Assembly: GCF_963082655.1 (NCBI RefSeq)
Contig: NC_081552.1
Span: 99,521,823-99,585,822 of the forward strand
Reading direction: 5' to 3'
From: Stomoxys calcitrans
Taxonomy: Eukaryota; Arthropoda; Insecta; Diptera; Muscidae
Length of the DNA: 64,000 nucleotides
Made by a program: the position numbers and the translations under genes. Positions 1-57,502 of the stretch are shown here, in pieces. How positions within the stretch are numbered: the stretch's first letter is position 1; every line of letters starts with the position of its first letter. The notes beneath the pieces are model-generated. The model saw only the letters and a program-made list of their open reading frames with translations. It ran no database searches and was not told where the DNA came from.

Positions 1-835
1 GATGAAATTTATAATTTATAGACTCCGATTTGCGGAGTCGGTCTTTTTTCATGTCGAATGGTGACGACAACAACACAATTTGGAAAATTCTATATTTTTG
101 AAGAATGGTCCTTGATAATGCGGGATACATAAAATCGAATAGAATGGAGATATTTTAGTGTTTCTTTTTGGGTTTTATAGAGAACGCGATAGAGAATAAA
201 AGTTCGTTATTCATATTTGCAATAAAATGTGATGTTCTATTGGAATTTAACATTCAGAGTAACACTAGTTGAATGTCGAAAAATTGCAAATGTTGCCCAT
301 ATGAAGGAACAGGGGCAATCTTCCCATATATCAATGAGTGCAGTCTGATTCAAGTTTAAGCTCAATGATAAGGGGCCTCCTTTTTATAGCCGAGTACGAA
401 CGGCGTGCCGCAGTGCGACACCTCTTTGGAGAGAAGTTTTACATGGCATAGTACCTTACAAATGTTGCCAGCATTACGAGGGGAAAACCACCGCTGAATA
501 TTTTTTTTGATGGTCTCGCCAGGATTCGAACCCAGGCGACCATTTCAAGCTTTATTTCGTATACAAAAAAGGGGAAAAATAAGCGGGAATGTGATACCTT
601 TTGAAATTTTGTAAAAAATATTAGCCATATTGGCTTTAAGATAGCGGGGAGGTTTGATATGAAGTCGAGCCAATTTTGAATTTAAAAATTATCTTAATAT
701 TTCCCGTTTATGAAACTTCAAAGAAATGATCATATCTTGATGGCAAAAGCTTAAAAATAATAGAAGTATTTTATTTGGAAAATTTTGCAAATTTTTGACA
801 AATAGTCGAAACGTTTACTTTTTGCAAAAGTCCAC
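1..835 (-). mobile_element. Decayed Transib inverted-repeat relic
   Basis: Positions about 60-290 and 560-835 can be aligned by eye, with many mismatches and gaps, to the right inverted repeat of the intact Transib element (about 26390-26620 and 26750-26960). Shared landmarks are ATAAAAT..GAATAGAATGGAGATAT, TTTGCAATAAAATGTGA, TTGGCTTTAAGATAGCGG.G and GAAAATTTTGCAA. The relic is interrupted by a SINE at 284-540. No transposase remains and neither outer end is visible. That it is an old relative of the intact copy follows from the ordered matches. How old it is, and whether it is the same subfamily, cannot be judged without an alignment. Confidence 0.7.
284..540 (-). mobile_element. tRNA-derived SINE, 5'-truncated
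   Basis: Read on the minus strand this copy keeps the B box (GGTTCGAATCC-like), the CAGCGGTGGTTTTC stretch, the CGGACTCGGCTATAAAAAGG segment and the TTCATTGAGCTTAAACTTGA tail region seen in the full copy at 38782-39097. The tRNA 5' part with the A box is missing at the 540 end. It sits inside the Transib relic, so it inserted after that element. Confidence 0.85.
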
Positions 836-945
836 TTTTTGATAAAGTCGAAAAGTCGAATTTTTTTCATAGAAAAGTCGAAAAGTCTAAAAGTCGACTT
901 TAGCCATTTTGATAGAAGGCGAAAAGTCGACCTTTCGCCCCAACT
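829..945. repeat. AAAAGTCGA-rich short tandem repeat
   Basis: An imperfect array of the nonamer-like unit AAAAGTCGA and its inverted form TCGACTTT follows the Transib relic. It contains no reading frame of note. Confidence 0.6.
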
Positions 946-1245: not shown

Positions 1246-1567
1246 TTTTATGTTTTGTTCTTTTGAATTTCATTTGGACAAAATCAATTTTGTGTTTTAT
1301 TCAACAATAAACCAATTTTAATTAAATTGCAAACAAAAAAATATTGTTGCAAGTTGATCGATTTTACCTGCTTATTAATTGCACAGTTTTGACACGCGGG
1401 TTACAGAAATTAACTAACATGACGACATGCAATGTTTAAAATTTGCAACAGTGAAACTCATTAAATGTTGGTAATATTGGCAGTATTAACAACCATGATA
1501 GAAAACATTGAAGAAACCATTGCATTGAATTGTAATTAAAGAATCTTTTGTGAAATTAATGTAGAAC

Positions 1568-1575
1568 TATAAATA
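1568..1575 (+). promoter_or_regulatory. TATA box of the cuticular-protein gene
   Basis: TATAAATA lies 34 bp upstream of a TCAGT initiator at 1600-1604 (A of the initiator at 1602). This is the usual insect core-promoter spacing. The implied 5' UTR is 97 nt. Confidence 0.75.
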
Positions 1576-1599
1576 GTGGGTAATAAATTGATTTCGATA

Positions 1600-1604
1600 T
1601 CAGT
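1600..1604 (+). promoter_or_regulatory. Initiator (Inr) / predicted transcription start
   Basis: TCAGT matches the arthropod initiator consensus TCAKT. Together with the TATA box it predicts transcription from A1602. No transcript evidence is available here. Confidence 0.6.
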
Positions 1605-1698
1605 TGCGTTTTAAGTGCTCCAGATCGTCTTTATCAAATAGCGAATCAAAAACAAAAATTAGAAAAATCGAATTTTTGGAATTAAATTCGTTAATAAA

Positions 1699-5343: not shown

Positions 5344-6115
5344 TCAAGTAAAAAGGAGTTAAGTGTGGCCATGCCGAACTTTGGATACCCACACCTCGTG
5401 TAAACCACCTTTCGTCATAAATCAGTGCAAAATCTGAATCAATCTTAGCCAAATTGCATAAAGTTATCGAAGGGCTTAAAACAACTCATTGTCCTAAATT
5501 TCGGCGAAATCGGAAAATAAATGCGCCTTTTACGTGCCCAAAGCCTTAAATCGATAGATCAGTCTATATGCAGCTATATCCAAATATAGACCGATCTAAG
5601 CCAAATTGAAGAAGAATGTTGAAGGGCCTAACACAACTCACTGTCCCAAATTTCAGCGAAATCGGACAATAAATGTGAATTTTATGGGTCCAAAACCATA
5701 ATCGAGAGATCGGTCTATATGGCAGCTATATCCAAATCTGAACCGATCTATGACATATTGCAAAAAGATGTTGAGTGGCCTAACTTAACTTACTGTCTTA
5801 AATTTGGGCGAAATTGGACAAAAAATGCGCCATTTATGGGCCCGAAACCTTAAATCGAGAGATCGGTCTATATGGCAGCCAAATTGAAGATGTATGTAGA
5901 CTGGTCTAACACATCTCACTGTCTCAAATTTCAGCAAAATCGGATAATAAATGTCGCTTTTATGGGCCTAAGACCATAAAGCGGCGGATCGATCTATATG
6001 GGGGATATATCAAGATATAGTCCGTTAGTTTTATAGCCTATTTTCGAACTTAACCTGCTTATGGACAAAAAAAAAAAGAATCTGTGCAAAGTTTCTGCTC
6101 AATATTGCAATCCAT
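5344..6115 (-). mobile_element. Family B element, 5' truncated
   Basis: Begins on the plus strand with AATCAAGTAAAAAGGAGTTAAG and a damaged hairpin, then TTTGGATACCCAC and three to four 153-type units with CGAGAGATCGGTCTATATGG. It runs to the AACCTGCTTATGGACAAAAA spacer that precedes the microsatellite in complete copies, then stops. The orientation is such that the 3' hairpin end is at 5344. At 6130 a family A 3' half begins. Confidence 0.8.
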
Positions 6116-9071: not shown

Positions 9072-10375
9072 TTTTTATACCCTCCACCATAGGATGGGGG
9101 GTGTCATTCTGTTTGTAACTACTCGAAATATTCGTCTGAGACCCCATAAAGTATATATATTCTTGATCGTCGCGATATTTTATATCGATCTAGCCTTGTT
9201 CGTCCATCTGTCCGTCCATCCGTCTGTCTGTTGAAAGCACGCTAACTTCCGAAGGAGTAAAGCTAGCCGCTTGAAATTTTGTATTGGTATTGTAAATGGG
9301 CCATATCGGTCTATGTTTTGATATAGCTGTCATATAAACCGATCTTGGGTCTTGACTTCTAGAGCCTCTAGAGTGCGCAATTCTTATCCAATTGGGATGA
9401 AATTTTGCACGACATGTTTTGTTATGGTATCCAAAAACTGTGCCAAGTATGGTCCAAATCGGTCCATAACCTGATATAGCTGCCATATAAACCGATCTTG
9501 GGTCTTGACTTCTTGAGCCTCAAGAGTGCGCAATTCTTATCCGATTGGAATAAAATTTTGCACGCCGTGTTTTGTTATGATATCCAACAACTGTGCCAAG
9601 TATGGTTCAAATCTCTCAATAACCTGATATAGCTGTTATATAAACCGATCTTCGGTCTTGACTTCTTGAGCCTCTAGGGTGCGCAATTCTTATTCGATTG
9701 GAATGAAATTTTGCACGTAGTGTTTTGTTATGATATCCAACAACTGTGCCAAACGTGATCAACTTTTGTTATGATACCCAACAACTGTGCCAAGCATGGT
9801 TAAAATTGTTTCCTAACCTGATATAGCTGTCATATAAACACATCTGGGGACTTGAATCATGAGTTTCTAGAGGGCGCAATTCCTATCCCATTTGGCTGAA
9901 CTTTTGCAAGACGTATTTTATTCTTACTTTCAACAACTGTGTCAAATAAGTTTCAAATCGGTTCATAACCTGATGTAGCTGCCATATATATAAACCGACC
10001 TAGTATCTTCAATTCTTGAGCCTCTAGACGACGCAATTATTATCCGATTTGCTTGAAATTTTGTACGACGGATCCTCTCATGACCATCATCATTTGTGTT
10101 TATTATGGTCAAAATCGGTCTTTAGCCCGATACAGCTGCCATATAAATCGATCTCTCTATTTTACTTCTTGAGCCCCCAAAGGGCGCAATTCTTATTCGA
10201 ATTGGCTGACAGTTTACACAGGTCTCCTACATATAATTTAATTGTGGTCCAAACTGGACCATATCTTGATATCGCTCTAGTAGCAGAGCAAATCGTTTCT
10301 TATATCCATTTTTTGCCTAAGAAGAGATGCCGGAAAAAGAACTTGACAGATGCGATCCATGGTGGAGGGTATATA

Positions 10376-11402
10376 TTGGGTTGCCCAAAAAGTAATTGTA
10401 ATATTATAGTAGTAATATAGTCGGCGTTGACAAATTTTTGCAACGGCTTGTGACTCTGTAATTGCATTCTTTCTTCTGTCAGTTATAAGCTGTTACTTTT
10501 AGCTTGCTTTAGAAAAGAAGTGCGCGAAATTTTGTTTACATTTGTTTGTTTGGCGTCAATTTTAATATGGGTACCACATGTATTGAAAGAAATTCATTTA
10601 ACAAACCGAATCAACGCTTTAACAAACCGAATCAACACTGAATCAAGGTGCTTAACGCAATGAATTCGATCCGTTTTTAAATCGAATCATAACTGGAGAT
10701 GAAAAATGGATTGTTTACAACAACGTTAGTCGAAAACGATAATGGTCCAATCATGGTGAACCAGCTCGAATCACTTCAAAGGCTGATATCCATCAAAAGA
10801 AGGTTATGCTGTCTGTTTGGTGGGATTGGAAGGGTGTGGTATATTTTGAGCTGCTTCCAGGGAACCAAACGATTAATTCGGATCTTTACTGTCAACAATT
10901 TGACAAATTGAATACAGCCATCATGGAGAAGCGACCAGAATTGGTCAATCGTAAAGGTGTCATATTCCACCAGGACAACGCTAGACCGCACACATCTTTG
11001 GTCACTCGCCAAAAACTGAGTGAGCTTGGCTGGGAACTTTTGATGCATCCACCATATAGCCCTGACCTTGCACCATCAGACTACCATTTATTTCGATCTT
11101 TGCAGAACTCCTTAAATGGTAAAACTTTCGGCAATGATGAGGCTATAAAATCGCACTTGGTTCAGTTTTTTGCAGATAAAGGCCAGAAGTTCTATGAGCG
11201 TGGAATACTAAATTTGCCAGGAAGATGGCAAAAGGTTATCGAACAAAATGGCAATTATATATTTGATTAAAGTTCAGGGAGATGGTAAAAGGTTATCGAA
11301 CAAAATGGCAATTATATATTTGATTAAAGTTCATTCTAAGTTTTATTAAAAATGCATTTACTTTCTTTTAAAAAATCCGCAATTACTTTTTAGGCAACCC
11401 AA
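10376..11402 (+). mobile_element. mariner-family transposon, defective (1,027 bp)
   Basis: Terminal inverted repeats start TTGGGTTGCCCAAAAAGTAA (left) and TTGGGTTGCCTAAAAAGTAA (right, minus strand), 23 bp with one mismatch. A TA lies on each side (10374-10375, 11403-11404), the tc1/mariner target duplication. At 1,027 bp it is shorter than the usual 1.3 kb: most of the DNA coding for the N-terminal DNA-binding region is gone. A 57-bp direct repeat (11223-11275 and 11280-11332) covers the stop codon. The termini resemble the cecropia-type mariner subfamily, judged from memory. Confidence 0.93.
10656..11270 (+). pseudogene. mariner transposase remnant
   Basis: Encodes the C-terminal catalytic half of a mariner DDE transposase. 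Translating from 10656 gives RNEFDPFLNRIITGDEKWI, with the first catalytic Asp in ITGDEKW. An in-frame TAA at 10740-10742 follows SRKR. Beyond it an open stretch runs from about 10743 to 11270. It contains the second Asp in HQDNARPH and HPPYSPDLAPSDYHLF with the third catalytic Asp, as in D,D34D mariners. A frameshift just before 10656 and the missing helix-turn-helix region confirm it is inactive. Its ends are still recognisable, so it could be moved in trans. Confidence 0.9.
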
Positions 11403-11658: not shown

Positions 11659-12626
11659 AACAAGTAAAAGCGATCTAAATTCGGCCAGGCCGAATCTTAT
11701 ATACACCACCATGGATCGCATTTGTCAAGCTCTTTCCACGGTATCTCGTTTTAGGCAAACAAAGGATAAAAGAATATTGACTATTGACTATTGGAGACCA
11801 TAGTAGAAGTCATTGCGTAAAATTTCAGCCAAATCTAGTAAGAATTGCGCACTTAAGGGGCTGAAGATGTGAAATAGGGAGATCGGTTTATAGGGGAGCT
11901 ATATTAGGCTATAAACCGATTCATACCATATTCGACACGTATGTTAAAGGTCATGAGAGAAGCCGTTGTTTCAGTCAAATCGGATAACACTTGCGCCTTT
12001 TAGAGGCTCAAGAAGTCATAATCCCATATCGGTTTATATGGCAGCTATACCAGGTTATGGACCGATTTGAACTATTCTTAGCACAATTGTTGAAAGTAGT
12101 GACAAAACACTTCGTGCAAAATTTCAGCCAAATCGGATAGGAATTGCGCACTCTAGATGCTCAAGAAGTCAAGACCCCATATAGGTTTATATAACAGCTA
12201 TATCAGATTATGGACAGATTTCAACCATACTCAGCACAGTTGTTTGAAGTCATAACAAAACACCTCATGCAAAATTTCAGCCAAATCGGATAAATATTGT
12301 GCCTTTAGCGGCTCAAGAAGTCATTATCCCAAATCGGTTTATATGGCAGCTAATATCAAAACGTGGACCGATATAACCCATTTACAATCCCAACCGACCT
12401 ACACTATTAAGAAGTATTTGGGCAAAATTTCAAGCGGATAGCTTTACTCCTTCGAAAGTTAGCGTGCATTCGACAGACAGACTGACGGACATGGCTAGTT
12501 CGACTTCAAATGTCATGACGATCAAGAATATATATTCTTCATGGGGTCTTAGACGAATATTTCGAGAAGTTACAAACAGAATGAAGAAATAAGTATACCC
12601 CCATCCTATGGTGGAGGGTATAAAAA
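11659..12626 (-). mobile_element. Family A element, complete
   Basis: The hairpin end AACAAGTAAAAGCG...TTCGGCCAGGCCGAATC is at 11659. TATACACCACCATGGATCG follows, then three to four tandem units with AAGTCATAATCCCATATCGG and GGCAGCTATA. Next come the AGCGTGCATTCGACAGACAG microsatellite area and CCTATGGTGGAGGGTATAAA at the 5' end. Both ends are present. Confidence 0.88.
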
Positions 12627-14329: not shown

Positions 14330-15850
14330 CCTCAAGTGCTGCCAGCAAGTGACTTGATTAACTTCTTTCTACTTTTGACTTGATCGCAAATTGCTGTGGC
14401 ATGTGGTGACGGCAAATTGCTGTCAAATGTGACGCCAAGTATTTTGGGACATTTGATGGTCGGAATCATTTCTCCATCGACCATCACAGTCAGCTCAGTA
14501 TTCACCTCACGCGTATTTGTAGTGAACAATGTGGCTGAAGATTTGGCGGCAGATATCTACATATTTCTTGGAGTGAAATATGAGGCAAGTTGGTTGAGGT
14601 AGACGTTCAACCTATCGCAGATGTCAACAATGGGTGGGGGGCCTGATGCCATGATCGTACAATCATCCGCATATGATACGATCTCTATGCCGTCTGGTGG
14701 GGGTGGAATGGAGGATAGGTAGAGGTTAAACATTGCTGGAGATATCACCTCACCTTGGGGAACTCCTTATTTCACTCTACGGTGTTTCGACTTCTTATCC
14801 CTAAATTCCACAAATGACTGTCGACCACACAGATAATTCGCGGCCCAGGGTTTCAGGCCTGGATGGAGGGACGTGTTGGCGATATCCTCAAATAATTTCG
14901 TATGGCTGACCGTGTCGAATGCCTTCGATAGGTCCAGTGCCACAAGGACCGTCCTATCACATGGCCTGGTCTGATTGAAGCCACGGCAAATGTGTGCGGT
15001 GATGGCATGCAAAGCTGTTGTTGTGCTGTGCAGTCTTCGAAATCCACATTGATGCTTGGCGAATGGAAATTCTCCTACGAGGCTTGGGAGGAGTAATGCC
15101 TCAAGCGTCTTTGCCTTTGGTGAGAGAAGGGAGATCGGTCTGTACGACTCCCCCGAATTCGGGTCTTTTCCAGGCTTCAGCAGCGAGATCACTCTGCCCA
15201 TTTTTCAGACATCGGGAACTACATGAGTGTTCAAAGACAGGTTGAGGACAGTGGTAAGGTACTCAACTCCAGGTGAATCCAAATTCTTCAACATCAATGA
15301 AGAGATTCGTCGGGGCCCAATGCCTTAGATGATTTGGCGCCACGGATAACATTCGTAACTTCGCCCACGGTAAATTGTAATGGCTGTTCATCGGCTCGGA
15401 GAACACGAATACGGCGAATGGCTCTCCTCCTTCCCTGTCTCTCTCGGGATGCCCAATAAATTGACGGTTAAACAACCTGGCGCATCTCTTCGGATCAGTT
15501 ACGGTTATTTCGCCAAAAGTAACTGAGGTCTTGTCATCCCGTCTACCGGGGTTCGAGAGTGACTTAACAGTAGACCACAGTTTGCCTACACCGGTGCCTA
15601 AGTTACATTGCTCCAAGTGTTCCAGCCACAAATTCCGCTTATGTTCGTTGACTACCCTGTTTATTTCCAGATTCAGCTCACTGATTCTGGGGTTAGCGGG
15701 GTCCATAGCACGAATCCCATCACCCTCATCTGCGAGTACCACTACTTGCGCCGGGAAATTGGGCCGCACTTGGGGTATTCGACCGGCTGGTATAAAGCTA
15801 GCGGCTGCTGCGTTAATGATGTCTCGGAATATCTTCTCGGCCACAAGCAC
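14330..15850 (-). pseudogene. LINE reverse transcriptase domain, broken
   Basis: The polymerase that copies element RNA at the nicked target. Motifs in order on the minus strand: VISLLKPGKDPNSGESYRPI (fingers), KHQCGFRRLHSTTTALH, LVALDLSKAFDTVSH (palm, first catalytic Asp), then ISPAMFNLYL and IEIVSYADDCTIMAS with the YADD catalytic pair. After it comes CPKILGVTFDSNL. The parts lie in several frames: 15850-15263, 15201-14767, 14748-14557 and 14529-14332. There is an in-frame stop just before the P-A-M-F-N segment. It cannot make an active enzyme. Confidence 0.92.
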
Positions 15851-18591: not shown

Positions 18592-19901
18592 CCGTCACCA
18601 TAAGATGGGGGGTATACTAATTTCGTCATTCTGTTTGTAACTACTCGAAATATTCGTCTGAGACCCCATAAAGTATATATATTCTTGATCGTCGCGACAT
18701 TTTATGTCGATCTAGCCTAGTCCGTCGGTCCGTCTGTCTGTCGAAAGCACGCTAACTTCCGAAGGAGTAAAGCTAGCCGCTTGAAATTTTACACAAATAC
18801 TTCTTATTAGTGTAGGTCGGTTGGTATTGTAAATGGGCCATATCGGTCCATGTTTTGATATTGCTGCCATATAAACCGTTCTTGGGTCTTGACTTCTTGA
18901 GCCTCTAACGTGCCCAATTCTTATCCGATCAGAATGAAATTTGGCACGACGTGTTTTGCTATGATATCCAACAACTGTGCCAAGTATGGTTGAAATCGGT
19001 CCATAACCTGATATAGCTGCCATATAAACCGATCTTGGGTCTTGACTTCTTGAGCCTCTAGAGTGCGCAATTCTTATCCGATTGAAATGAAATTTTACAT
19101 GACGTGTTTTGTTATTATATACAACAACTGTGCCAAGTATGGTTCAAATCGGTCCATAACCTGATGTAGCTGCCATATAAACCGATCTTGGGTCTTGACT
19201 TCTTGAGCCTCTAGAGGGCACAATTTTTATCCGATTTGAATGAATTTTTGCACGAAGTATTTCGTTATGATATCCAACAACTGTGCCAAGTATGGTTGAA
19301 ATCGGTTCATAACCTGATATAGCTCTCATATAAACATATCTGGGGATTTGACTTCTTGAGCTTCTAGAGGGAGCAATTCCTATTCGATTTGGCTGAAATT
19401 TTGCATGACGTATTTTATTTTTACTTTCAACAACTGTGTCAAATAAGATTCAAATCGGTTCATAACCTGATATAGCTGCCATATAAACCGATCTGGGATC
19501 TTGACTTCTTGACCCCTAGAGGTCGCACTTATTATCCGATATGCCTGAAATTTTGTACGATCCTCTCATGACCATCAACAAACATGTTTATTATGGTCTG
19601 AATCGGTCTATAGCCCGATACAGATCCCATATAAATCGTTCTCTCTATTTTACTTCGTGAGCCCCCAATGGGCGCAATTCTTATACGAATTGGCTGAAAT
19701 TTTACACAGGTTTCCAACATATAATTTAATTGTGGTTCAAACCGGACCATATCTTGATATCGCTCTAATAGCAGAGCAAATCTTTTCTTATATCCTTTTT
19801 TGCCTAAGAAGAGATGTCGGGAAAATAACTCGACAAATGCGATCCATGGTGGAGGGTATATAAGATTCGGCCTGGCCGAACTTAGCACGCTTTTACTTGT
19901 T
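18592..19901 (+). mobile_element. Family A element, complete
   Basis: The 5' end TTTTATAACCGTCACCATAA is followed by GTCCGTCGGTCCGTCTGTCT, GCTAGCCGCTTGAAATTTTA and five or so tandem units. It ends with GATCCATGGTGGAGGGTATA, the hairpin TTCGGCCTGGCCGAA and CTTTTACTTGTT. The uninterrupted target sequence is recognisable at 20410-20475. Confidence 0.9.
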
Positions 19902-20639: not shown

Positions 20640-21931
<1,292 letters not shown>

Positions 21932-22142
21932 CATGTGTACCGTGACTTTTGGGGACCAAAAAATTTTCGGAGTTTTGACCGATTAAAAATTATCTCGCGA
22001 CTTTTTAAGCCTTTCTATATAAAAAAAACGTTTTTGCCCTATTTGGGGCCTATTTATCGCAGATTTAGTACCTACCGGTAATTTTGAGTACATTACTTTA
22101 TGTATCGTTACTTTCGAGGACGCGTCCTTGAATATCACGCTG
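21932..22142 (+). repeat. Family D repeat (CCGTGACTTT..GGGGAC)
   Basis: After the TA tract come GTGTACCGTGACTTTTGGGG, ACCTACCGGTAATTTTGAGT and TATCGTTACTTTCGAGGACG. These are degenerate copies of one motif. The reverse complement of 42560-42724 carries the same motifs and is likewise joined to a TA tract. The Transib element inserted in this repeat; traces continue at 27497-27600 (ACTTTTCGAGGACAAC). Confidence 0.65.
22138..22142. repeat. Transib target-site duplication, left (CGCTG)
   Basis: CGCTG precedes the left CACAGTG terminus and is repeated directly after the right terminus (27492-27496). Transib elements make 5-bp, GC-rich duplications, so length and composition both fit. Confidence 0.93.
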
Positions 22143-23573
22143 CACAGTGGGCCAAATGGCAAAAAAATTGGAAATAAGTCTACAACTTTTTATCTGTTGA
22201 TTTTAGCCATACAAAATGTTCTAGACATTTGTAGAGGAGGACATAGGCTTTCAGAAAAGTGCTGTTGTTGGTCCATATCTTTAATACAGGGTGAGCTACA
22301 GGGTGTCAAAGTTGACCACTTTTGACTTCTCCAAGCTTCTGGGGGCCATAACTTTTGATCTACTCAACCGATTTACATGATTTAGGACTCTAGAGAAAGA
22401 GCTTGACAAGATCTAAAAAACTTATGCATAAAGTACCATGCCATCGTGTACTGTTAAGGAGTTATGAATTGTTTAATTTTAAAATATGAAAATTTGGCCT
22501 TGGTTTTTTTCAGTGTTTTTTTAATAACTCCGTCAATTTTAAAGCTATAAACTTCATACTTCACACAAATTATGCCAGCATATGTGTGCATAAAATACAA
22601 AAGGAATCACGTGAATATCTTTGGCGGTTTAAAAATGGCATCGTTTTCAATATGAAAAATATTTTTTTTGTCAAAAAATTGCAAAATTTTTCAAAAAAGA
22701 TACTCCCATTTCCTTTAAGTTTTCGCAAACTTTGGCCGTCAAAGCATTATCATTTCTTTCCATTTTCACAAAGTCGAGGTATTAAGAAAAGTTTTAAGTG
22801 CTAATTTGGCTAATTTCGATATCAAACAACACCGTTATCTTAAGACCAAAATGGCCAATTTTTTTACTAAACTTCAAAAGTTTCTCACTGGAAAAAAAGT
22901 TCCACGGGGATTTTTTCGCTTTTTTTGAACTTAAATGAAAGCTTAAAATGTTCCCAACATTTTAAGGTATGTCTCGCCATATCCTAGCCATAAATGAGAT
23001 CGTAGCGATCAAAATACTGAAAAAAGTCAATTTTCAAGTAGTGCTATATTCATTGCTAAAAAACAAGTATTACGTCACATTTTATTGCAAAGATGTTAAA
23101 TAAACTTTTATTTGGTAACACTTCTTCTACAAAACACAAAAAGAATCATGGAAATATCTCTATTCTATTCCATTTTATGGAACCGGCAATAAAAAAGTCA
23201 ATTTTTCAAAAAAGTCGAATTTCCCAAATTTTGTTTTTGTTGTCCTAATTGCACATGACACACTATAGCCATATTTACGCAACATACCTTATCGTAAAGG
23301 AAATTTTCATACCTTTCCAACGATGTATAAAACATTTCTCAACTCGGATTCTATCTACTCTAAAATTCATTTACACTTCATTAAACTCTATATAAAAATG
23401 TCTATTTGTGAAATGGAACCTTATATGGGGCCTACACTAAAACATTGATAGATTTGCCCAGGGTTTACAATACAAATGTGTTAGAATAAAAAAAGGTCTC
23501 CTGCCAAAGTTTAAAAAAATTGGAATAAAAATATGTGTTTTAGAGCGAAAACACTTCGCATCGGCGTGCGTTT
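22143..23573 (+). repeat. Transib left terminal inverted repeat (1,431 bp)
   Basis: Starts CACAGTGGGCCAAATGGCAA and ends GGCGTGCGTTT. It is rich in A/T runs. Short frames inside it (for example 22586-22804) occur identically and symmetrically in the other arm (26830-27048, minus strand) and are not thought to be genes. The first 25 bases contain a CAAAAAAA run, loosely like the nonamer of recombination signals, with a 9-10 nt spacer from the heptamer. Confidence 0.95.
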
Positions 23574-23969
23574 GTATAGTACCTACATCTATTTTTAATG
23601 TAAGCTGATGATTTTTGAATAAAAAGTAACCTAGAAATATACCTGCATATATATATATATTTGTGTTAAGATTTGATGCAGACAAATGTTACCTGTTTCG
23701 CTATGTCGAATTCCCAGGAAATCCACCGTATCAATGAATGTGAAAAAACCTACCCATAAAAAATTCATTGTCATTTTTTTTAACCAAATTCGAGTCCAGG
23801 TAAATAATTATAGAAGAGTAAGTAAAAAGAGGCACTTTGGACCCCTTTTTACGATTGCGTCTGATACCTGAAATGGGTCATTAATTGTGAATATATTGCA
23901 TAAATATTTGAACAAAATCCAAATTTTCTTCATTATATTTTGTAGAGGCGTAAAGGACATTTATAAGTT
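23574..23969 (+). promoter_or_regulatory. Transib transposase upstream region
   Basis: 396 bp between the left repeat and the start codon. It should hold the promoter and 5' UTR. A possible 5' UTR intron (donor near CAGGTAAAT at 23798, acceptor TTATATTTTGTAG ending at 23945) is plausible: an in-frame TAA at 23964-23966 closes the frame upstream of ATG 23970. No clear TATA/Inr pair is seen. Confidence 0.4.
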
Positions 23970-26012
23970 ATGGAAGTCATACTGAAGTATTCCACTCTTT
24001 CGAAAATTGTATGGGACATCAAAAATGATTCCAAATCATACACGGAGTCATTTAAGGAACTTGTTTACACTTTGGACCACATATATGGAATAAGGCTAAA
24101 TAAAGACGCTTTAGACAAACTTGAAAAATTCTACAAATCATTTGAGAGAAGGTTGCCAGAATGTTCATTCGCAAAAATCAAGTTTTTCAAAATGTATGAG
24201 AAGTGGCTGAAATCGGATCTACTTATTGAAATTAAACCGCTGATTCCCGGCCGGCCTAGCAAAGCATACGACGAAGTTACGGAGAAAACCAAAAAGAAAA
24301 AACAAGAGGAACTATTGGCGGCACATCCGCCAAATTTAATAAAAGATACGTTCAAAACAGCATTGTTAAAAACACAACCAAAAAATGTTGGACGAATTGT
24401 CGATGTTTTACCATTAGCATCTCCGAAAAGGGTAAAGAGAATGGTAGAAAGTATTCCAACTCCAAAATCGACTACAGAATTCACGGAGGAAGATGCACTG
24501 GCCCTGATTTTGAACCTAGGCCTCTCAAGAAACAAATACTCAACAATGAGGAAGGCTCTTCGTGAAAAAGGATGGGGTTGTTTACCCTCAAAACATAAAT
24601 TGTACAACACCAGGACGAAAATGGTGCCATCAAATATATACGTGGACGAATTAAAAGCAAGAGTGAAACTTGCTGATCTTGTTGAAAATACAGCTGTTAG
24701 AATTATTTCTAATTTTACTGAAGAACAGTTGAACACATGTAATAATTCCGAAGTGGTTTTGATCAGCAAATGGGGATGTGATGGATCATCTGGATTTTCC
24801 GAATATAAGCAACAAACAGAAATAGATACCAACTTCGCATCAATTTTCATGGCATCATTAGTACCATTGAGAATGAGATTGTACAAGGACCAATCTTCAT
24901 CATCGAAAGAAAATGCATTTCAAGATATATGGATAAATAGAACACCTGGGTCAAAATATTTATGTCGCCCAATTCGGTTTGAGTATACAAAGGAAGACCG
25001 GAACACAACACGATCTTTGGTGAACGAAATAAAGGAAGAAATTGCTGCATTACCCATGATTGTTATAAACCAATTGGGAAGAAATATAAAAGTTTCGTTT
25101 CAACTACAACTCACTATGATCGATGGAAAGGTGGCAAACGCATTAACTGGCGTTATGTCCAATTGGAGATGCAATATTTGTGGCAAGAAGAATGGGCAAT
25201 TCGAGGACAAGTCTGATGAAAATTTAGTAAACGAAAATGCGCTCAATTTCGGTATTTCGCCCCTGCACTGTAGAATTCGATTCATGGAGTATTGTTTGCA
25301 TTTATCGTATGACCTTAAATATCGGACTAGCCCTGGAAACCGCGATGTCTCTGCTAGAAACAACCAAGATCTTCACAAAATGAGGCAGGAAGAGAAGAAT
25401 CGAATCCAGTTGGAGTTTAAACAAAAGGGACTTATAATAGATAAACCTCTTTACGGATACGGAAGCACAAATGATGGCAACTCGGCAAGGCGGTTTTTTG
25501 AGGACCCCGTATCGACATCTAAAATAACCGGTCTTGATGAACACTTGCTAAGACGATTCAAAGTGATTTTGGCTGTAATCAATAGCAAAAAGATGATAAA
25601 TTCAACCAAATTTGAAGCTTATAGTAATGACACAAAAAACATTTTATCTGATTTATATTCGTGGAAAGCTTTAACACCGACAGTACATAAAGTCTTACAT
25701 CATGGCAAGGAAATTGTGGAATACAACATACTTCCGTTAGGAGAACTTACAGAAGAAGCTCAGGAATCCCGTAATAGAGATGTTAAACAGTTCCGGCTTT
25801 TCAATACCCGAAAGAGCACCAAATTTAACCAAAATTATGATTTACTTCAATATTTATTGTTATCGTCTGATCCGGTACTATACAGCATCAGAACTAAATG
25901 GCTACCAAAAATATGTGACGATATAGATAAGGACGATCCCGATGCCATTCAAATTAAAGAGCTTTTAAATTTTGATACCTTAGATTATTTGGTAGAGAAT
26001 AAAATCAAATAA
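23970..26012 (+). CDS. Transib transposase (RAG1-core related), intact, 680 aa
   Basis: A DDE recombinase that would bind the CACAGTG ends, nick and form hairpins, excise the element and join it to a 5-bp staggered target. It is one uninterrupted exon; 680 aa fits full-length fly Transibs. An N-terminal lysine-rich linker (residues 105-113, EKTKKKKQE) and a GRPSKAYDE segment precede the core. Catalytic candidates: D271 in KWGCDGSSGFSEYKQ, D385 in LTMIDGKVANALTG and E596 in TEEAQESRNRD. Zinc candidates: C401 and C404 (CNIC), H573 and H578 (VHKVLHHG). PLHCRIRF at 431-438 resembles the conserved LHC segment of RAG1. From recall, RAG1 has the same order: Asp, Asp, CxxC, His-x4-His, Glu, with the Glu about 20 residues after the second His (18 here). 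ATG 23970 is chosen because an in-frame stop precedes it. Not tested: whether it is expressed or active. Confidence 0.93.
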   Translation: MEVILKYSTLSKIVWDIKNDSKSYTESFKELVYTLDHIYGIRLNKDALDKLEKFYKSFERRLPECSFAKIKFFKMYEKWLKSDLLIEIKPLIPGRPSKAYDEVTEKTKKKKQEELLAAHPPNLIKDTFKTALLKTQPKNVGRIVDVLPLASPKRVKRMVESIPTPKSTTEFTEEDALALILNLGLSRNKYSTMRKALREKGWGCLPSKHKLYNTRTKMVPSNIYVDELKARVKLADLVENTAVRIISNFTEEQLNTCNNSEVVLISKWGCDGSSGFSEYKQQTEIDTNFASIFMASLVPLRMRLYKDQSSSSKENAFQDIWINRTPGSKYLCRPIRFEYTKEDRNTTRSLVNEIKEEIAALPMIVINQLGRNIKVSFQLQLTMIDGKVANALTGVMSNWRCNICGKKNGQFEDKSDENLVNENALNFGISPLHCRIRFMEYCLHLSYDLKYRTSPGNRDVSARNNQDLHKMRQEEKNRIQLEFKQKGLIIDKPLYGYGSTNDGNSARRFFEDPVSTSKITGLDEHLLRRFKVILAVINSKKMINSTKFEAYSNDTKNILSDLYSWKALTPTVHKVLHHGKEIVEYNILPLGELTEEAQESRNRDVKQFRLFNTRKSTKFNQNYDLLQYLLLSSDPVLYSIRTKWLPKICDDIDKDDPDAIQIKELLNFDTLDYLVENKIK

Positions 26013-26060
26013 TACAAAACTAAAATGCTTTTTTATTTTGGGAGTAGCTAATATACATAT

Positions 26061-27491
26061 AAACGCACGCCGATGCGAAGTGTTTTCGCTCTAAAACACA
26101 TATTTTTATTCCAATTTTTTTAAACTTTGGCAGGAGACCTTTTTTTATTCTAACACATTTGTATTGTAAACCCTGGGCAAATCTATCAATGTTTTAGTGT
26201 AGGCCCCATATAAGGTTCCATTTCACAAATAGACATTTTTATATAGAGTTTAATGAAGTGTAAATGAATTTTAGAGTAGATAGAATCCGAGTTGAGAAAT
26301 GTTTTATACATCGTTGGAAAGGTATGAAAATTTCCTTTACGATAAGGTATGTTGCGTAAATATGGCTATAGTGTGTCATGTGCAATTAGGACAACAAAAA
26401 CAAAATTTGGGAAATTCGACTTTTTTGAAAAATTGACTTTTTTATTGCCGGTTCCATAAAATGGAATAGAATAGAGATATTTCCATGATTCTTTTTGTGT
26501 TTTGTAGAAGAAGTGTTACCAAATAAAAGTTTATTTAACATCTTTGCAATAAAATGTGACGTAATACTTGTTTTTTAGCAATGAATATAGCACTACTTGA
26601 AAATTGACTTTTTTCAGTATTTTGATCGCTACGATCTCATTTATGGCTAGGATATGGCGAGACATACCTTAAAATGTTGGGAACATTTTAAGCTTTCATT
26701 TAAGTTCAAAAAAAGCGAAAAAATCCCCGTGGAACTTTTTTTCCAGTGAGAAACTTTTGAAGTTTAGTAAAAAAATTGGCCATTTTGGTCTTAAGATAAC
26801 GGTGTTGTTTGATATCGAAATTAGCCAAATTAGCACTTAAAACTTTTCTTAATACCTCGACTTTGTGAAAATGGAAAGAAATGATAATGCTTTGACGGCC
26901 AAAGTTTGCGAAAACTTAAAGGAAATGGGAGTATCTTTTTTGAAAAATTTTGCAATTTTTTGACAAAAAAAATATTTTTCATATTGAAAACGATGCCATT
27001 TTTAAACCGCCAAAGATATTCACGTGATTCCTTTTGTATTTTATGCACACATATGCTGGCATAATTTGTGTGAAGTATGAAGTTTATAGCTTTAAAATTG
27101 ACGGAGTTATTAAAAAAACACTGAAAAAAACCAAGGCCAAATTTTCATATTTTAAAATTAAACAATTCATAACTCCTTAACAGTACACGATGGCATGGTA
27201 CTTTATGCATAAGTTTTTTAGATCTTGTCAAGCTCTTTCTCTAGAGTCCTAAATCATGTAAATCGGTTGAGTAGATCAAAAGTTATGGCCCCCAGAAGCT
27301 TGGAGAAGTCAAAAGTGGTCAACTTTGACACCCTGTAGCTCACCCTGTATTAAAGATATGGACCAACAACAGCACTTTTCTGAAAGCCTATGTCCTCCTC
27401 TACAAATGTCTAGAACATTTTGTATGGCTAAAATCAACAGATAAAAAGTTGTAGACTTATTTCCAATTTTTTTGCCATTTGGCCCACTGTG
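26061..27491 (-). repeat. Transib right terminal inverted repeat (1,431 bp)
   Basis: The exact-length inverse of the left arm, starting 48 bp after the transposase stop codon. The two arms could fold into a very long hairpin if a read-through transcript were made. Because the stop codon is so close, the transposase 3' UTR and polyadenylation signal must lie at the edge of, or inside, this repeat. Confidence 0.95.
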
Positions 27492-27496
27492 CGCTG
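27492..27496. repeat. Transib target-site duplication, right (CGCTG)
   Basis: Directly follows the right terminal CACTGTG and is identical to 22138-22142. Confidence 0.93.
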
Positions 27497-29247: not shown

Positions 29248-30606
29248 AACAAGTAAAAAGGCATTAAGTTCGGCCGGGCTGAACTTTGGATACCAGCCAC
29301 CTCAGGTATATATGTAAACCACCTTTCGTCATAATCCGATAAAAGATGCATATTTTGTGCAACCATAGCAGCTATGTACGATTTGGACCAAACCCGGCAC
29401 GGACATTGATTGGTGTAATAAATAAAAGTCAATGTTCAATTTTGAATAACAAAATATTGATTTTGTTGGCAGCTATAACCAGATATATGCCGATCTGAAC
29501 CATATAACCCCTGGATGTCGAAAAGCCAAACATAAATCACTTCGTCAAATTAGAGCGAAATCAGATAGTAAATGGGGCCCAAGACCTTAGATCGAGAGAT
29601 CGGTCATATGGCAGCTATATCCTAATCTGAACCGATCTGGGCAAAATTGAAATTGAAAAGATATTGAGGGACCCAACACAACTCACTGTCCCAAATTTCA
29701 ACGAAATCGGACAATAAATGCGCCTTTTATGTGCCCAAAACCTAAAATAGAGAGATCGGTTTTTATGGCAGCTCTATTTAAATCTAGAGCGGTCTAAGCC
29801 AAATTGGAAACAGATTTTGAAGTGCTTAACACAATTCATTGTCCCAAATTTCAGCGAAATTAGATTATAAATTCGCCTTTCATGTGCACAAGACCTCAAA
29901 TCAAGAGATCGGTCTATATAGCAGCTATATACAAATCTGGACTGGTATTGGCCAAATTGAAGAAAGATATTGAGTGACCTAACACAACTCACTGCCCTAA
30001 ATTTCAGCGAAATCGAACAATAAATGCCACTTTTTGGATTATAAGACCTTAAATCGAGAGATTAGTCTATAAAGCAGCTATATCCAAATCTGAACCAATC
30101 TGGTCCAAATTTAAAAAATATGTCGAAGAGCTTAATACAACTTGCTGTCCCAAATTTCAGCGAAATCGGACAATAAACGAGCCTTTTATGGGCCCAAGAC
30201 CTTAAGTCGAGAAATCGGTCTATATGGCAGCTATATCGAAATCTAAACCGATCTTGTCCAAATTAAACAAGGATGTCTAGTGACCGAAAACAACTCTGTC
30301 TCAAATTTCTGCAAAATCGGGTAATAAATGCGGCTTTTATGGGCCTAAGACCTTAAATCGGCAGATCGTTTTATATGGGGTCTACACCAAGATATAGTCC
30401 GATATAGCCCACTTCACTTGCCTATGGATAAAAACAGAAAATGTGCAAAGTTACAGCTAAATATCTTTATTTTTAAAGACTGTAGCCTGATTTCAACAGA
30501 CAGATGGACGGACATGGCTGGGTCGTCTTATACTTTTACGACGATCAAGAATATATATGTATATTTTATAGGGTCGGATATTGATATTTGGTGATGGGTA
30601 TAAAAA
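29248..30606 (-). mobile_element. Family B element, complete
   Basis: AACAAGTAAAAAGGCATTAAG, hairpin TTCGGCCGGGCTGAAC and GGATACCAGCCACC form the 3' end. Units start with ATCGGTC-like words at 29599, 29755, 29908, 30061, 30214 and 30365 (spacings 156, 153, 153, 153, 151). A CAGACAGATGGACGGACATG microsatellite area and GGTGATGGGTATAAAAAG close the 5' end. A further partial 5' piece follows to about 30720. Confidence 0.85.
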
Positions 30607-36702: not shown

Positions 36703-37870
36703 CAATGAGAAAACGCATTAAGTTCGGCCGGGCCGAACTTTGGATACCCACCACCTCGAGTATATAACTAAACCACCTTTCGTAATAGTCCGGTGAAAAA
36801 TTCATAATTCATTTTTAGAACAAAATGGGTCTTTTTGGAAGCAAAATCCAGATATGGACCGATAAAAGGATGTCGAAAGGCTAAAATTAAATTTAAATTA
36901 ATTAAATTAAACTAAATTTCAGCGAAATCGAACAATAAATGCGCCTTTTATGGGGCCAAGACCTCAAACTGAGAGATCGATCTATTTGTATTCCCGCGGC
37001 GATTGATCCTTTGGACCGGAACGAGCTTGCTCATCTTGAAAGAGCTTGACGAGGATCGCCACCCATCTCCACATGCAAATGTGGCTACTACAACAACAAC
37101 ATCGATCATTTGGCAGCTATATCCAAATCCAGACCGATCTATGCCAAATTGCACAATGATGTCATGATACCTAACACAACTTGTTGTTTCAAATTTCAGC
37201 GAAATCGGACTATGAATGCGCCTATTATGGGTCCAGGATCTTAAATCGAGAGATCGGTCTATAAGGCAGCTATATCCAAATCTAGACCGATCTGACAGAT
37301 TAAAAACAGATACTAAATGGCCTAAGACTACTCACTGTCCAGATTTTCAGTAAAATCGAACAATAAATGCGCTTTTTATGGGCCCAAGACCTTAAATCGG
37401 AAGATCGGTCTATATGGCAGCTATATCCAAATCTGAACCGATCTAAGCCAAATTAAACAAGGATATCAACTGACTTAACACAACTCACTGTTTCAAATTT
37501 CAGCGAAATCGGACAATAATTGCGCCTTTTATGGGCCCAAGACCTTAAATCAGCAGTAAATCGGGAGATCGGTCTAGATGACAGCTGTACCCAAATCCTG
37601 ACCGATCTGAGCCAAACTAAAACAGAATATCCAAAGGCTAAACGTTACTGTTTCAAATTTCAGTGAAATCAGACAATAAATGCGCCTGTTATGGGCTTTA
37701 GACCCAAAATCGGCAGATCGGTCTATATGGCAGCTACATATATGTAAATATAGACCGATATGCACCATATTCAGACCGAATGCCAAAGTTCTTAGTACAA
37801 CTCATTGCTTCAAATTTCAGCGAAATCGGACAAAAATTGAGGCTTTTATGGGCTGAAGACCATAAAGAAG
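36703..37870 (-). mobile_element. Family B element, 5' truncated, with LINE tail inside
   Basis: 3' end: AACGCATTAAGTTCGGCCGG and TTTGGATACCCACCACCTCG. Six or so units follow with CCAAGACCTTAAATC and AGATCGGTCTATATGGCAGC. A LINE tail inserted at 36983-37100. No microsatellite or 5' box remains; it ends near 37870. Confidence 0.82.
36983..37100 (+). mobile_element. LINE 3'-end insertion with (CAA)n tail
   Basis: Contains GCGGCGATTGATCCTTTGG, a near-perfect stem CCACATGCAAATGTGG and a terminal CTACTACAACAACAAC. ATCGATC flanks it (36976-36982 and 37101-37107), a candidate target duplication. It is a 5'-truncated insertion typical of LINEs and disrupts a family B unit. Confidence 0.75.
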
Positions 37871-39858: not shown

Positions 39859-41374
39859 AACAAGTAAAAAGTCGTTAAGTTCGGCCGGGCCGAACTTTGG
39901 ATACCCACCACCTCGGGTATATATGTAAACCACCTTTCATCAAAATTCGGTGAAAATTTTATACCTTATATCCCATATGAGTTATATCCAAATATGTTCC
40001 GATTTGGACCAAATACTAATAAGTACATTAGCTATATCTAAAAAGAAACCGATCTGAACTATATACGACACGGATTTCGAATGTCAATGTGCCAAATTTC
40101 AGTAAAATCGGATTATAAATGCGCCTTTTATGGGGCCAAGACATTAAATCGAGATATCGGTCTACATGGCAGCTATATCCAAATCGGGACCGATTTGGGT
40201 CAAGTTGCATAAAAATGTCGAAGAGCCTAACACAAAGCACTGTCCCAAATTTCAGCGAAATCGGACTATTAATGTCGCTTTTATGGGCCCAAAACCTTAA
40301 GTCGAGAGATCGGTCTATATGGCAGCTATATTCAAATCTGGACCGATCTGGGCAAAATTAAGGAAGGACGTCGAAGAGCCTAACCAAACTCACTGTCTCA
40401 AATTTCAGCGACATCGGACAATAAATGCGTATTTTATGGCCCCAAAACCTAAAACCTAGATATCGGTCTATATGGCAGCTATATCTAAATCTGGACCGAT
40501 CTGTGCGATATTGCAGAAGTATGTCAAGGAGCTTAACTTAACTCACTGTCCCAAATTTCGGCGACATCGGACAATAAATGAGCATTTTATGGGCCCAAAA
40601 CCATAAATCAAGAAATCGGTGTATATGACAGCTATATCCAAATCTGAACCGATCTGGACCAAATTGAAGAAAGATGTCTAAGTGCCTAACACAACTCACT
40701 GTTCCAAATTTCAGCAAAATCGGACAATAAATGTGCCTTTTATGGGCCTAGCACCTTAAATCGTAGGATCGGTCTATATGGCAGCTATATCCAAATCTGA
40801 ACCGATCTAAGCCAAATTATTGATGAATATCGACGGGCCTTACACAACTCACTGTCCTGAATTTCAGCGAAATCGGATAAAAAATGTGGCTTTTATGGGC
40901 CTTAGACCCTAAATCGGAGGATCGGTCTACATGGCAGCTATATCCAAATCTGGACCGATCTGAGCTAAAATGACGAAGGATGTCAAAGGGCCTAACACAA
41001 CTCACTGCCCCAAATTTCAACAAAATCGGATAATAAATGTGGCTTTTATGGGCCTAAGACCCTAAATCGGCGGATCGGTCTATATGGGGGCTATATCAAG
41101 ATATAGTGCGATATAGCCCATCTTCGAACTTAACCTGCTTATGGACAAAAAAAGAATCTGTGCGAAATTTCAGCTCAATATCTTTTTTTTGAAAGACTGT
41201 AGCGTGATTTCAACAGACAGACGGACAGACGGACGGACATGTCTAGATCGTCTTAGATTTTTACGCTGATCAAGAATATATATACTTTATAGGGTCGGAA
41301 ATGGATATTTCGATGTGTTGCAAACGGAATGACAAAATGAATATACCCCCATCCTTCGGTGGTGGGTATAAAAA
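39859..41374 (-). mobile_element. Family B element, complete (1,516 bp), 153-bp array
   Basis: The best family B copy. AACAAGTAAAAAGTCGTTAAG and hairpin TTCGGCCGGGCCGAAC lie at the 3' end. GATACCCACCACCTCGGGTA follows. Eight tandem units have the ATCGG word at 40156, 40309, 40462, 40615, 40768, 40921 and 41074, all exactly 153 bp apart, plus a partial one before. Then come a spacer with GCTTATGGACAAAAAAAGAA, a CAGACAGACGGACAGACGGA microsatellite, and CCTTCGGTGGTGGGTATAAA at the 5' end. Non-coding. Confidence 0.9.
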
Positions 41375-44881: not shown

Positions 44882-46052
44882 TTTTTATACCCTCCACCAT
44901 AAGATGGGGGGTATACTAATTTCGTCATTCTGATTGTAACTACTCAAAACATTCGTCCGAGACCCCATAAAGTATATATATTCTTGATCGTCGTGAAATA
45001 TTATGTCGATGTAGCCATGTCCGTCCGTCCGTCTGTCTGTCGAAAGCACGCTAACTTCCGAAGGAGTAAAGCTAGCCGCTTGAAATTTTGCACAAATACT
45101 TCTTATTAGTGTAGGTCGGTTGGTATTGTAAATGGGCCATATCGGTCCATGTTTTGATATAGCTGCCATATAAACCGATCTTGGGTCTTGACTTCTTGAG
45201 CCTCTAGAGTGCGCAATTCTTATCCGATTGGAATGAAATTTTGCACGACTTGTTTTGTTATGATATCCAACAACTGTGCCAAGTATGGTTCAAATCGTTC
45301 TGTAACCTGATATAGCTGCCATATAAACCGATCTCGGGTCTTGACTTCTTGAGCCTCTAGAGTGCGCAATTCTTATCCGATTGGAATGAAATTTTGCACG
45401 ACGTGTTTTATTATGATATCCAACAACTGTGTCAAGTATGGTTCAAATCGGTCCATAACCTTATATAGCTGTCATATAAACCGATCTTGGGTCTTGACTT
45501 CTTGAGCCTCTAGAGGGCGCAATTCTTATCCAATTTGAATGAATTTTGGCACGTAGTATTTTGTTATGATATCCAACAACTGTGCCAAATATGGTTCAAA
45601 TCGGTTCATAACCTGATATAGCTGTCATATAAACAGATATGGGGACTTGACTTCTTCAGCCTCTAGAGGTCGCAGTTATTATCCGATTTGCCTGAAATTT
45701 TGTACGACGGATTCTCTCATGACCATCAACATACGTGTTTATTATGGTCTGAATCGGTCTATAGCCCGATACAGCTCCCATATAAATCGATCTCTCTATT
45801 TTTCTTCTTGAGCCCCCAAAGAGCGCAATTCTTATTCGAATTGGCTGACATTTTACACAGGTCTCCCACATGTAATTTAATTGTGGTCCAAACCGGACCA
45901 TATCTTGATAACGCTCTAATAGCAGAGCAAATCTTTTCTTATATCCTTTTTTGCCTAAGAAGAGATGCCAGGAAAAGAACTCGACAAATGCGATCTATGG
46001 TGGAGGGTATATAAGCTTCGGCCCGGCCGAACTTAGCACGCTTTCACTTGTT
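44882..46052 (+). mobile_element. Family A element, complete
   Basis: TTTTTATACCCTCCACCATA, a GTCCGTCCGTCCGTCTGTCT microsatellite, AGGAGTAAAGCTAGCCGCTT, and five tandem units with ACCGATCT.GGGTCTTGACT. It ends GATCTATGGTGGAGGGTATA, hairpin TTCGGCCCGGCCGAA and CTTTCACTTGTT. Confidence 0.9.
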
Positions 46053-48395: not shown

Positions 48396-50029
48396 AACAA
48401 GTAAAAGCGTGCTAAGTTCGGCCGGGCCGAATCTTATATACCCTCCACCATGGATCGCATTTGTCGAGTTCTTTTCCCGGCATCTCTTCTTAGGCAAAAA
48501 AGGATATAAGAAAAGAGTTGCTCTGCTATTAAAACGATATCAAGATATGGTCCGGTTCGGACCACAATTAAATTATATGTTGGAGACCTGTGTAAAATTT
48601 CAGCCAATTCGTATAAGAATTGAGCCCATTGGGGCTCACGAAGTAAAATAGAGAGAACGATTTATATGGGATCTGTATCGGGCTATAGACCGATTCAGAC
48701 CATAATAAACACGTTTGTTGATGGTCATGAGAGGATCCATCGTACAAAATTTCAGGCATATCGGATAATAATTGCGACCTCTAGGGGTCAAGAAGTCAAG
48801 ATCCCATATCGGTTTATATGGCAGCTATATCAGGTTATGAACCGATTTGAACCGTTGTTGAAAGTAAAAATAAAATACGTCATGCAAAATTTCAGCCAAA
48901 TCGGATAGGAATTGCGCCCTCTAGAAGCTCAAGAAGTCAAATCCCCAGATCTGTTTATATGACAGCTATATCAGGTTATGGACCGATTTCAACCATACTT
49001 GGCACAGTTGTTGGATATCATAACGAAATACCTCGTGCAAAAATTCATTCAAATCGGATAAGAATTGTGCCCTCTAGAGGCTCAAGAAGTCAAGACCCAA
49101 GATCGGTTTATATGACAGATATATCAGGTTATGGACCGATTTAAACCATACTTGGTACAGTTTTTGGGTATAATAACAAAACACGTCGTGCAAAATTCCA
49201 TTCCAATCGGATAACAATTGCGTACTCTAGAGGCTCAAGAAGTCAAGACCCAAGATCGGTTTATATGGCAGCTGAATCAGGTTATGGACCGATTTGAACC
49301 ATACTTGGCACAGTTGTTAGATATAATAACAAAACACGGCGTGCAAAATTTCATTTCAATCGGATAAGAATTGCGCACGCTAGAGGCTCAAGAAGTCAAG
49401 ACCCCAGATCGGTTTATATGGCAGCTATATCAGGTTATGGACCGATTTGAAACATACTTTGCACAGTTGTTGGATACCATAAGGAAACACGTCGTGCAAA
49501 ATTTCATTCAGATCGGATAAGAATTGCGCACGCTAGACGCTCAAGAAGTCAAGACCCAAGATCGGTTTATATGGCAGCTATATCAGGTTATGGACCGATT
49601 TGAACCATACTTGGCACAGTTGTTGGATATCATAGCAAAACACGTCGTGCAAAATTTCATTCCAATCGAATAAGAATAGCGCTCTCTAGAGGCTCAAGAA
49701 GTCAAGACCCAAGATCGGTTTATATGGCAGCTATGTCAAAACATGGACCGATATGGCCCTTTTACAATACCAACCGACCTACACTAATAAGAAGTATTTG
49801 TGCGAAATTTCAAGCGGCTAGCTTTACTCCTTCGAAAGTTAGCGTGCTTTCGACAGACAGACAGACGGACGGACGGACGGACGGATGGACAGACGGACGG
49901 ACATGGCTAGATCGGCATAAAATTTCACGACGATCAAGAATATATATACTATAGACGAATATTTCGAGTAGTTACAATCAGAATGACGAAATTAGTATAC
50001 CCCCCATCTTATGGTGGAGGGTATAAAAA
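48396..50029 (-). mobile_element. Family A element, complete, exact 153-bp array
   Basis: Ends: AACAAGTAAAAGCGTGCTAA plus hairpin TTCGGCCGGGCCGAA at 48396, and CTTATGGTGGAGGGTATAAA at the other side. The unit word ATCGGTTTAT (or a near form) occurs at 48809, 48949, 49102, 49255, 49408, 49561 and 49714. The last five spacings are all 153. The microsatellite is (GGAC)n at 49862-49905. It is joined directly to a second copy. Confidence 0.93.
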
Positions 50030-50961
50030 GGATATAAGAAAAGATTTGCTCTACTATTAGAGCGATATTAAGATATGGTCCGGTTTGGAACACAATTAAA
50101 TGATTTGTTGGAGACCTGTGTAAAATTACAGTCAATTCGAATAAGAATTGCGCCCTTTGTGGGCTCAAAAAGTAAAAAAGAGAGATCGATTTATATGGGA
50201 GCTATATCAGTCTTTAAACCGATTCAGACCATAATAAACACGTATGTTAATGGTCATGAGAGAATCCGTCGTACAAAATTTCAAGCAAATCGGATAATAA
50301 TTGCGACCTCTAGAGGCTCAAGAAGTCAAGATCCCAGATCGGTTTATATGGCAGCTATATCAGGTTATGAACCGATTTGAACGATATTTGGCACAGTTGT
50401 TGAATATTATAACAAAATACTACGTGCCAAAATTCATTCAAATTGGATAAGAATTGCGCACTCTAGAGGCTCATGAATTCAAAACCCCAGATCGGTGTGT
50501 ATGGCAACTATATCAGGATATGGACCGATTTGAACCATACTTGGCACAGTTGTTGGATATCGTAACAAAACACGTCGTGCAAAATTTCATCCCAATCGGA
50601 TTAGAATTGCGCACTCTAGAGGCTCAAGAAATCAAGACCCAAGGTCGGTTTATATGGCAGCTATATCAAAACATGGACCGATATGGTCCATTTACAATAT
50701 TAACCGACCTACACTAATAAGAAGAATTTGTGCAAAATTTCAAGCGGCTAGCTTTACTCCTTCGGAAGTTAGCGTGCTTTCGACAGACAGACGGACGGAC
50801 GGACGGACGGACAGACGGACGGACATGACTAGATCGACATAAAATTTCACGACGATTAAGAATATATATACTTTATGGGGTCTCAGACGAATATTTCGAG
50901 TAGTTACAATCAGAATGGCGAAATTAGTATACCCTCCATCTTATGGTGGAGGGTATAAAAA
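50030..50961 (-). mobile_element. Family A element lacking the hairpin end, fused to the previous
   Basis: Starts at GGATATAAGAAAAGATTTGC, a point about 90 bp inside a normal element, directly after the GGTATAAAAA of its neighbour. It then runs through three to four units, (GGAC)n at 50790-50823 and CTTATGGTGGAGGGTATAAA. Both sides of the junction share AAAAAGGATATAAG, pointing to recombination between two elements. Confidence 0.85.
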
Positions 50962-51097: not shown

Positions 51098-51861
51098 AAC
51101 AAATAAAAAAGCGTTAAGTTCGGCCAGGCGGAACTTTGAATACCCACCTCCAGGGGTGTATACGTAAACCTCCTTTCGTCACGCATGTCGAAAAGCCTAA
51201 CTTAAGTCACTGTGTCAAATTTCAGGGAAATCGGATTATAAATGCGCCTTTTATGGGGCCAAGACTTTGAATCGAGATTTCGGTCTATATGGCAGCTATA
51301 TTCAATAAATAATAAATGTGGCTTTTATGGGCCTAAGGCCCTAAATCGGCTAATCGGTCTATATGGCAGCATAACTCCTTGTCCCAAATTTACGCGACAT
51401 CGGACAATAAATGCGCCTTTTATGGCCCCAAAACTTTAAATCGGGAGATCGGTCTATATTGTAGCTACATTCAAATATCAACCGATCTGGGCCAAATCGA
51501 AGAATGAAGTCGAAGGGCCTAATTCAACTCATTGTCCAAAATTTCGGCGACATCGGACAATAAATGAGCCTTTTATGGGCCCAAAACCTTAAATCGAGAG
51601 ATCGGTCAATATGGCAGTTATATCCAAATCTGGACCAATCTGTGCCATATTGCAGAAGTATGTCGAGGGGCTTAACACAACTTACTGTCCCAAATTTCGG
51701 GGACATCGGACAATAAATGCGGCTTTTAGGGGCCCAGAACCTCAAATCGAGAGATCGGTCTATATGGCAGCTATATCCAAATCTGAATCGATCTGGGCCG
51801 AATTGCAGAAAGATGTCGAAGGGCCTTTCACAACTCACTGTCCCAAATTTTGGCAAAATTG
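51098..51861 (-). mobile_element. Family B element, 5' truncated
   Basis: AACAAATAAAAAAGCGTTAAG, hairpin TTCGGCCAGGCGGAAC and TTGAATACCCACCTCCAGGG, then four units with AATCGAGAGATCGGTC. It ends at GGCAAAATTGTTTAAAAATT, where family C begins. Confidence 0.8.
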
Positions 51862-57485: not shown

Positions 57486-57502
57486 AAAGCGCGCAACGAT
57501 TT

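Follow-up and report, generated by a model that had tools for sequence, protein, structure and literature searches.

The 64,000-nucleotide stretch of Stomoxys calcitrans DNA analysed here (contig NC_081552.1, positions 99,521,823 to 99,585,822; hereafter the window) carries a transposon of 5,349 bp at positions 22143-27491 of the window. To judge from its sequence, it is very probably a full-length, potentially autonomous cut-and-paste element of the Transib superfamily. Transib transposases are kin of the enzyme that rearranges antibody genes. The element and its borders are organized as follows:

22138-22142, no strand: left target-site duplication (TSD) CGCTG
22143-23573, plus strand: left terminal inverted repeat (TIR), 1,431 bp, outer end CACAGTGGGCCAAATGGCAAAAAAATTGG, 0/1,431 differences from the right arm
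22143-22149, plus strand: terminus CACAGTG, resembling the heptamer of the recombination signal sequence (RSS)
23574-26060, plus strand: unique core, 2,487 bp
23970-26012, plus strand: Transib transposase gene, 680 aa, one unbroken frame
26061-27491, minus strand: right TIR, also 1,431 bp, matching the left arm base for base
27485-27491, minus strand: RSS-heptamer-like terminus, reading CACTGTG on the plus strand
27492-27496, no strand: right TSD CGCTG

The sequence at the junctions reads ...ATCACGCTG / element / CGCTGTATAT..., and all coordinates and counts given for the element, its arms, its frame and its TSD in a preliminary description of this DNA were reproduced. Identity between the arms breaks at the first inner base, after which three more matches are followed by background similarity; a repeat search tolerating mismatches gave arms of 1,436 rather than 1,431 bp. 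That the arms have exactly the same length, as the preliminary description noted, is no additional evidence, because inverted arms without a mismatch cannot differ in length. When as many as 3 mismatches are tolerated, the first 18 bases of the element occur in the whole window at its two ends only, where 0.02 occurrences are expected by chance. We also paired the 13 sites matching CAC[AT][AG]TG with 12 inverted-partner sites at distances of 60-9000 bp: the sole pair with equal 5-bp flanks delimits the element, and no further CACAGTG-type element with matching 5-bp flanks was found in the window. Outside the element, simple repeats excluded, the longest perfect inverted repeat in the window measures 99 bp. 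To the left of the element, a (TA) repeat comprising some 106 copies (21718-21930) stops about 210 bp short of it.

The transposase ATG is preceded at a distance of 6 bases by an in-frame stop (23964), and the 680-aa frame contains neither stop nor frameshift. Its product is homologous to known Transib transposases, with HzTransib as the best match in the PDB. The DDE catalytic residues D271, D385 and E599 are intact, as are C401, C404, H573 and H578. The residues G94-R95-P96, which may mark an N-terminal DNA-binding region like the nonamer-binding domain of RAG1, were aligned to the GGRP region of RAG1 in two listed profile alignments, which are weak (2.6 and 4.0 bits); among 47 aligned rows, G94 is conserved in 44, R95 in 32 and P96 in 42. 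Besides the RAG1 match described below, the transposase has a second weak Pfam match, to DUF1280 at residues 165-234, with an E value of 0.00092 and a score of 19.3 bits where the cut-off is 25. An antisense frame of 251 aa over the transposase gave no Pfam match. The core offers no room for a RAG2-like gene outside the transposase frame (396 + 48 bp), and the longest open stretch in the arms is 104 codons, an intron-split gene in the arms not having been searched for. The Transib-like proteins P0054 (S. calcitrans) and P0042 (Stomoxys) are respectively 35% and 48% identical to the transposase; on these sequence identities they are other Transib families and no copies of the present element. 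The protein-search entry for the transposase of the window itself comprises 3 contigs, the longest of 3,780 bases, which is not a copy count.

Both ends of the element have the sequence CACAGTGGGCCAAATGGCAAAAAAATTGG, in which an A-rich run begins 11 bases past the heptamer. We take CACAGTG to be the consensus of the RSS heptamer. In the accessible text of PMC8355894, emphasis is laid on CAC, and the commonest immunoglobulin heptamer is given as CACAAAG. RSS-heptamer-like CAC termini in inverted orientation and a 5-bp TSD characterize Transib elements, and the present element has both, as CACAGTG and CGCTG.

Several observations weigh against this assignment. The Pfam RAG1 match reaches 24.1 bits, just under the cut-off of 25, and in a single-sequence search the RAG1 and RAG1L stretches listed individually scored no better than E 0.007. 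Scanning spacers of 5-34 for a nonamer gave at best 6/9 matches, at spacers 9 and 11, with 5/9 at 12 and 4/9 at 23. The 12/23 asymmetry is also absent, because the two ends are identical. However, symmetric ends are ordinary here, since symmetric and asymmetric ends both occur among Transibs according to the parts of PMC8355894 and PMC9435367 at our disposal. The Transib identity put forward in the preliminary description is borne out by the sequence, profile and fold of the transposase as well as by the termini and the TSD. It is scarcely conceivable that the transposase should be placed in a different superfamily (Chapaev or P) with a remote RAG1 likeness, as the sequence, profile and fold evidence on its homology argues against such a placement. 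The TSD of Chapaev, which we take to be 4 bp, also differs from the 5 bp observed here; no Pfam match to a Chapaev profile was obtained up to E 1, Pfam possibly holding no Chapaev model.

Relatives of the arms were looked for in the rest of the window, and one was found by alignment at its start:

49-839, minus strand: degraded sequence related to the arm, from an old insertion of its own

It consists of two blocks, window 538-839 (69% identical to arm positions 489-811) and window 49-273 (74% identical to arm positions 891-1116), separated by other sequence at about 274-537. The blocks score 136-139 bits, while 20 Markov-generated controls did not exceed 39.2 bits. The arm sequence therefore belongs to an older repeat lineage. 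Alongside this relative we detected no transposase, nor an outer end of its own. Under lenient scoring the arm also aligned to window 1516-1688 at 44 bits, a match that is without a control and is not claimed. Between the degraded blocks, sequence at about 500-545 carries a tRNA B-box-like motif (GGTTCGAATCC on the minus strand) and is perhaps a tRNA-derived short interspersed nuclear element. A possible inner copy of the terminal motif, close to where the arm ends inwards (23503-23525), was rejected: its 19/31 matches were equalled by 22 of 200 Markov-generated sequences, which is chance level.

The preliminary description had proposed that the element was recently mobile. If the arms evolved independently, 0/1,431 differences set a 95% upper bound of 0.21% on their divergence, and the perfect TSD and the intact frame point in the same direction. 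Arm identity could, however, also have been preserved by gene conversion, a process to which long inverted arms lend themselves well. We nevertheless consider it rather unlikely that this is an old copy, never recently mobile, with arms kept alike by gene conversion alone: the transposase frame escapes arm-to-arm conversion because it lies outside the arms, yet 680 codons have remained free of stops and frameshifts, and the TSD is perfect. An assembly artefact, either a false inverted duplication or a collapsed consensus of two differing arms, might be invoked since exact identity over 1,431 bp could stem from a consensus error. This is very improbable, as the identity stops precisely at CACAGTG on both sides, which a chimeric palindrome has no reason to do, the CGCTG repeat flanking the arms is direct and not inverted, and the arm has an independent diverged copy at 49-839; arms that differ slightly might nevertheless have been collapsed into one sequence.

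We compared this Transib with known systems. The available part of PMC1852546 (2007) describes Hztransib of Helicoverpa zea as an element of 3,518 bp with 'long TIRs', the TSD GCTCG and a 489-aa protein. Superfamily, transposase fold and catalytic core are common to Hztransib (PDB 6pqn, 6pqx) and the present element, and so, as far as that part goes, are a single gene, a 5-bp TSD and long TIRs. By arithmetic from the same figures, and if the frame lies between the arms, the arms of Hztransib measure at most about 1,020 bp, whereas those of the present element measure 1,431 bp. The present transposase is also about 165 N-terminal residues longer than that of Hztransib, and 44 of the 47 aligned rows are occupied in this region, around G94. 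A Galileo copy from Drosophila has TIRs of 1,575 and 1,608 bp that are 97.5% identical, in the portion of PMC4168063 consulted; Galileo thus shares kilobase TIRs on a DNA transposon but belongs to the P superfamily and has another transposase. RAG1-RAG2-like transposons and ProtoRAG share the RAG1-core fold, the CAC heptamer and the 5-bp TSD (PMC7204232, in the part seen). Unlike them, the present element has no space in its core for a RAG2-like gene outside the transposase frame. The unusual architecture claimed in the preliminary description therefore holds in the degree of arm length but not as a new kind of element, since long TIRs had already been reported for Hztransib in the accessible text of PMC1852546. 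Given the long TIRs of Hztransib and the kilobase arms of Galileo, as far as these sources were available, the present arms look like the extreme of a known range. A partial search found no literature on a Stomoxys calcitrans Transib, and with such coverage priority for the arm length cannot be claimed. No related elements were found in IMG/VR (single protein, alignment and exact 29-base terminus) or in GTDB genomes (alignment), as expected for an insect element.

Other features were observed in the rest of the window. A two-exon cuticular protein gene lies at 1699-2367 (exons joined by eye); its product is 99% identical over its full length to a Stomoxys calcitrans protein, apart from a two-residue insertion, and the next match is from Haematobia irritans (76%). 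This one gene makes the stable fly or a very close relative the probable host. A mariner-type transposase fragment (10806-11333; Pfam Transposase_1, E 1.2e-18) ends in a 57-bp tandem duplication (11218-11333). A reverse transcriptase fragment (14767-15201, minus strand; Pfam RVT_1, E 3.8e-14) adjoins a frame at 15263-15850 that has no Pfam match. Direct duplications relate 53914-55538 to 55537-56288 and 57484-58361 (99.7% over 752 bp and 99.9% over 879 bp); such near-identity within a few kb (53914-58361) arose either in the assembly or through a recent duplication at this place. Rfam gave no match in the whole window at gathering thresholds. Sequences with a tandem repeat of about 153 bp, which we assume to resemble DINE-1/Helentron-type elements, are dispersed in many copies in both orientations, some near GACG-type microsatellites:

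5442-5879, 9319-9752, 11969-12372, 18842-19560, 29575-30378, 37111-37866: copies of the ~153-bp repeat
40084-41097, 45155-45858, 48740-49752, 50269-50742, 51373-51854: copies of the ~153-bp repeat
54939-55442, 56633-57193, 57763-58265, 58540-58940, 63638-63999: copies of the ~153-bp repeat

For the Transib itself, anatomy, enzyme homology, intact catalytic positions, CAC-heptamer termini and the 5-bp TSD were established directly. The fold, the acidic triad, the heptamer ends and the TSD are consistent with the nick-hairpin cut-and-paste reaction of Transib and RAG. By extension from these reactions, a transposase dimer would pair the two identical ends through their terminal tens of bases and nick 5' of CACAGTG; hairpins would form on the flanking DNA, releasing the element, which would be joined to its target with a 5-bp stagger. 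By analogy, transposition probably needs just the outer ends of the arms. The part of PMC7204232 available proposes that invertebrate RAG-like transposons depend mainly on the last 15-17 bp. More tentatively, the 1.4-kb arms might be the product of past arm extension, and their identity might result from recent insertion combined with correction of one arm by the other, through gene conversion or templated repair. That the kilobase arms are an inherited, functional trait of a stable-fly Transib lineage seems doubtful; recombination between the arms could for example invert the core, or transcription through the right arm could yield long double-stranded RNA regulating the element. The degraded piece at the start of the window fits an old long-arm lineage and does not imply function.

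The unusual point is thus the great length of the identical inverted arms and not the basic type of element, and the picture of RAG evolution is unaltered by it. Intact, apparently young and undecayed, with identical ends, this Transib might prove active in experiments as a companion to HzTransib, and the great length of its arms permits a direct test of the amount of terminal sequence needed by a RAG1-type transposase.
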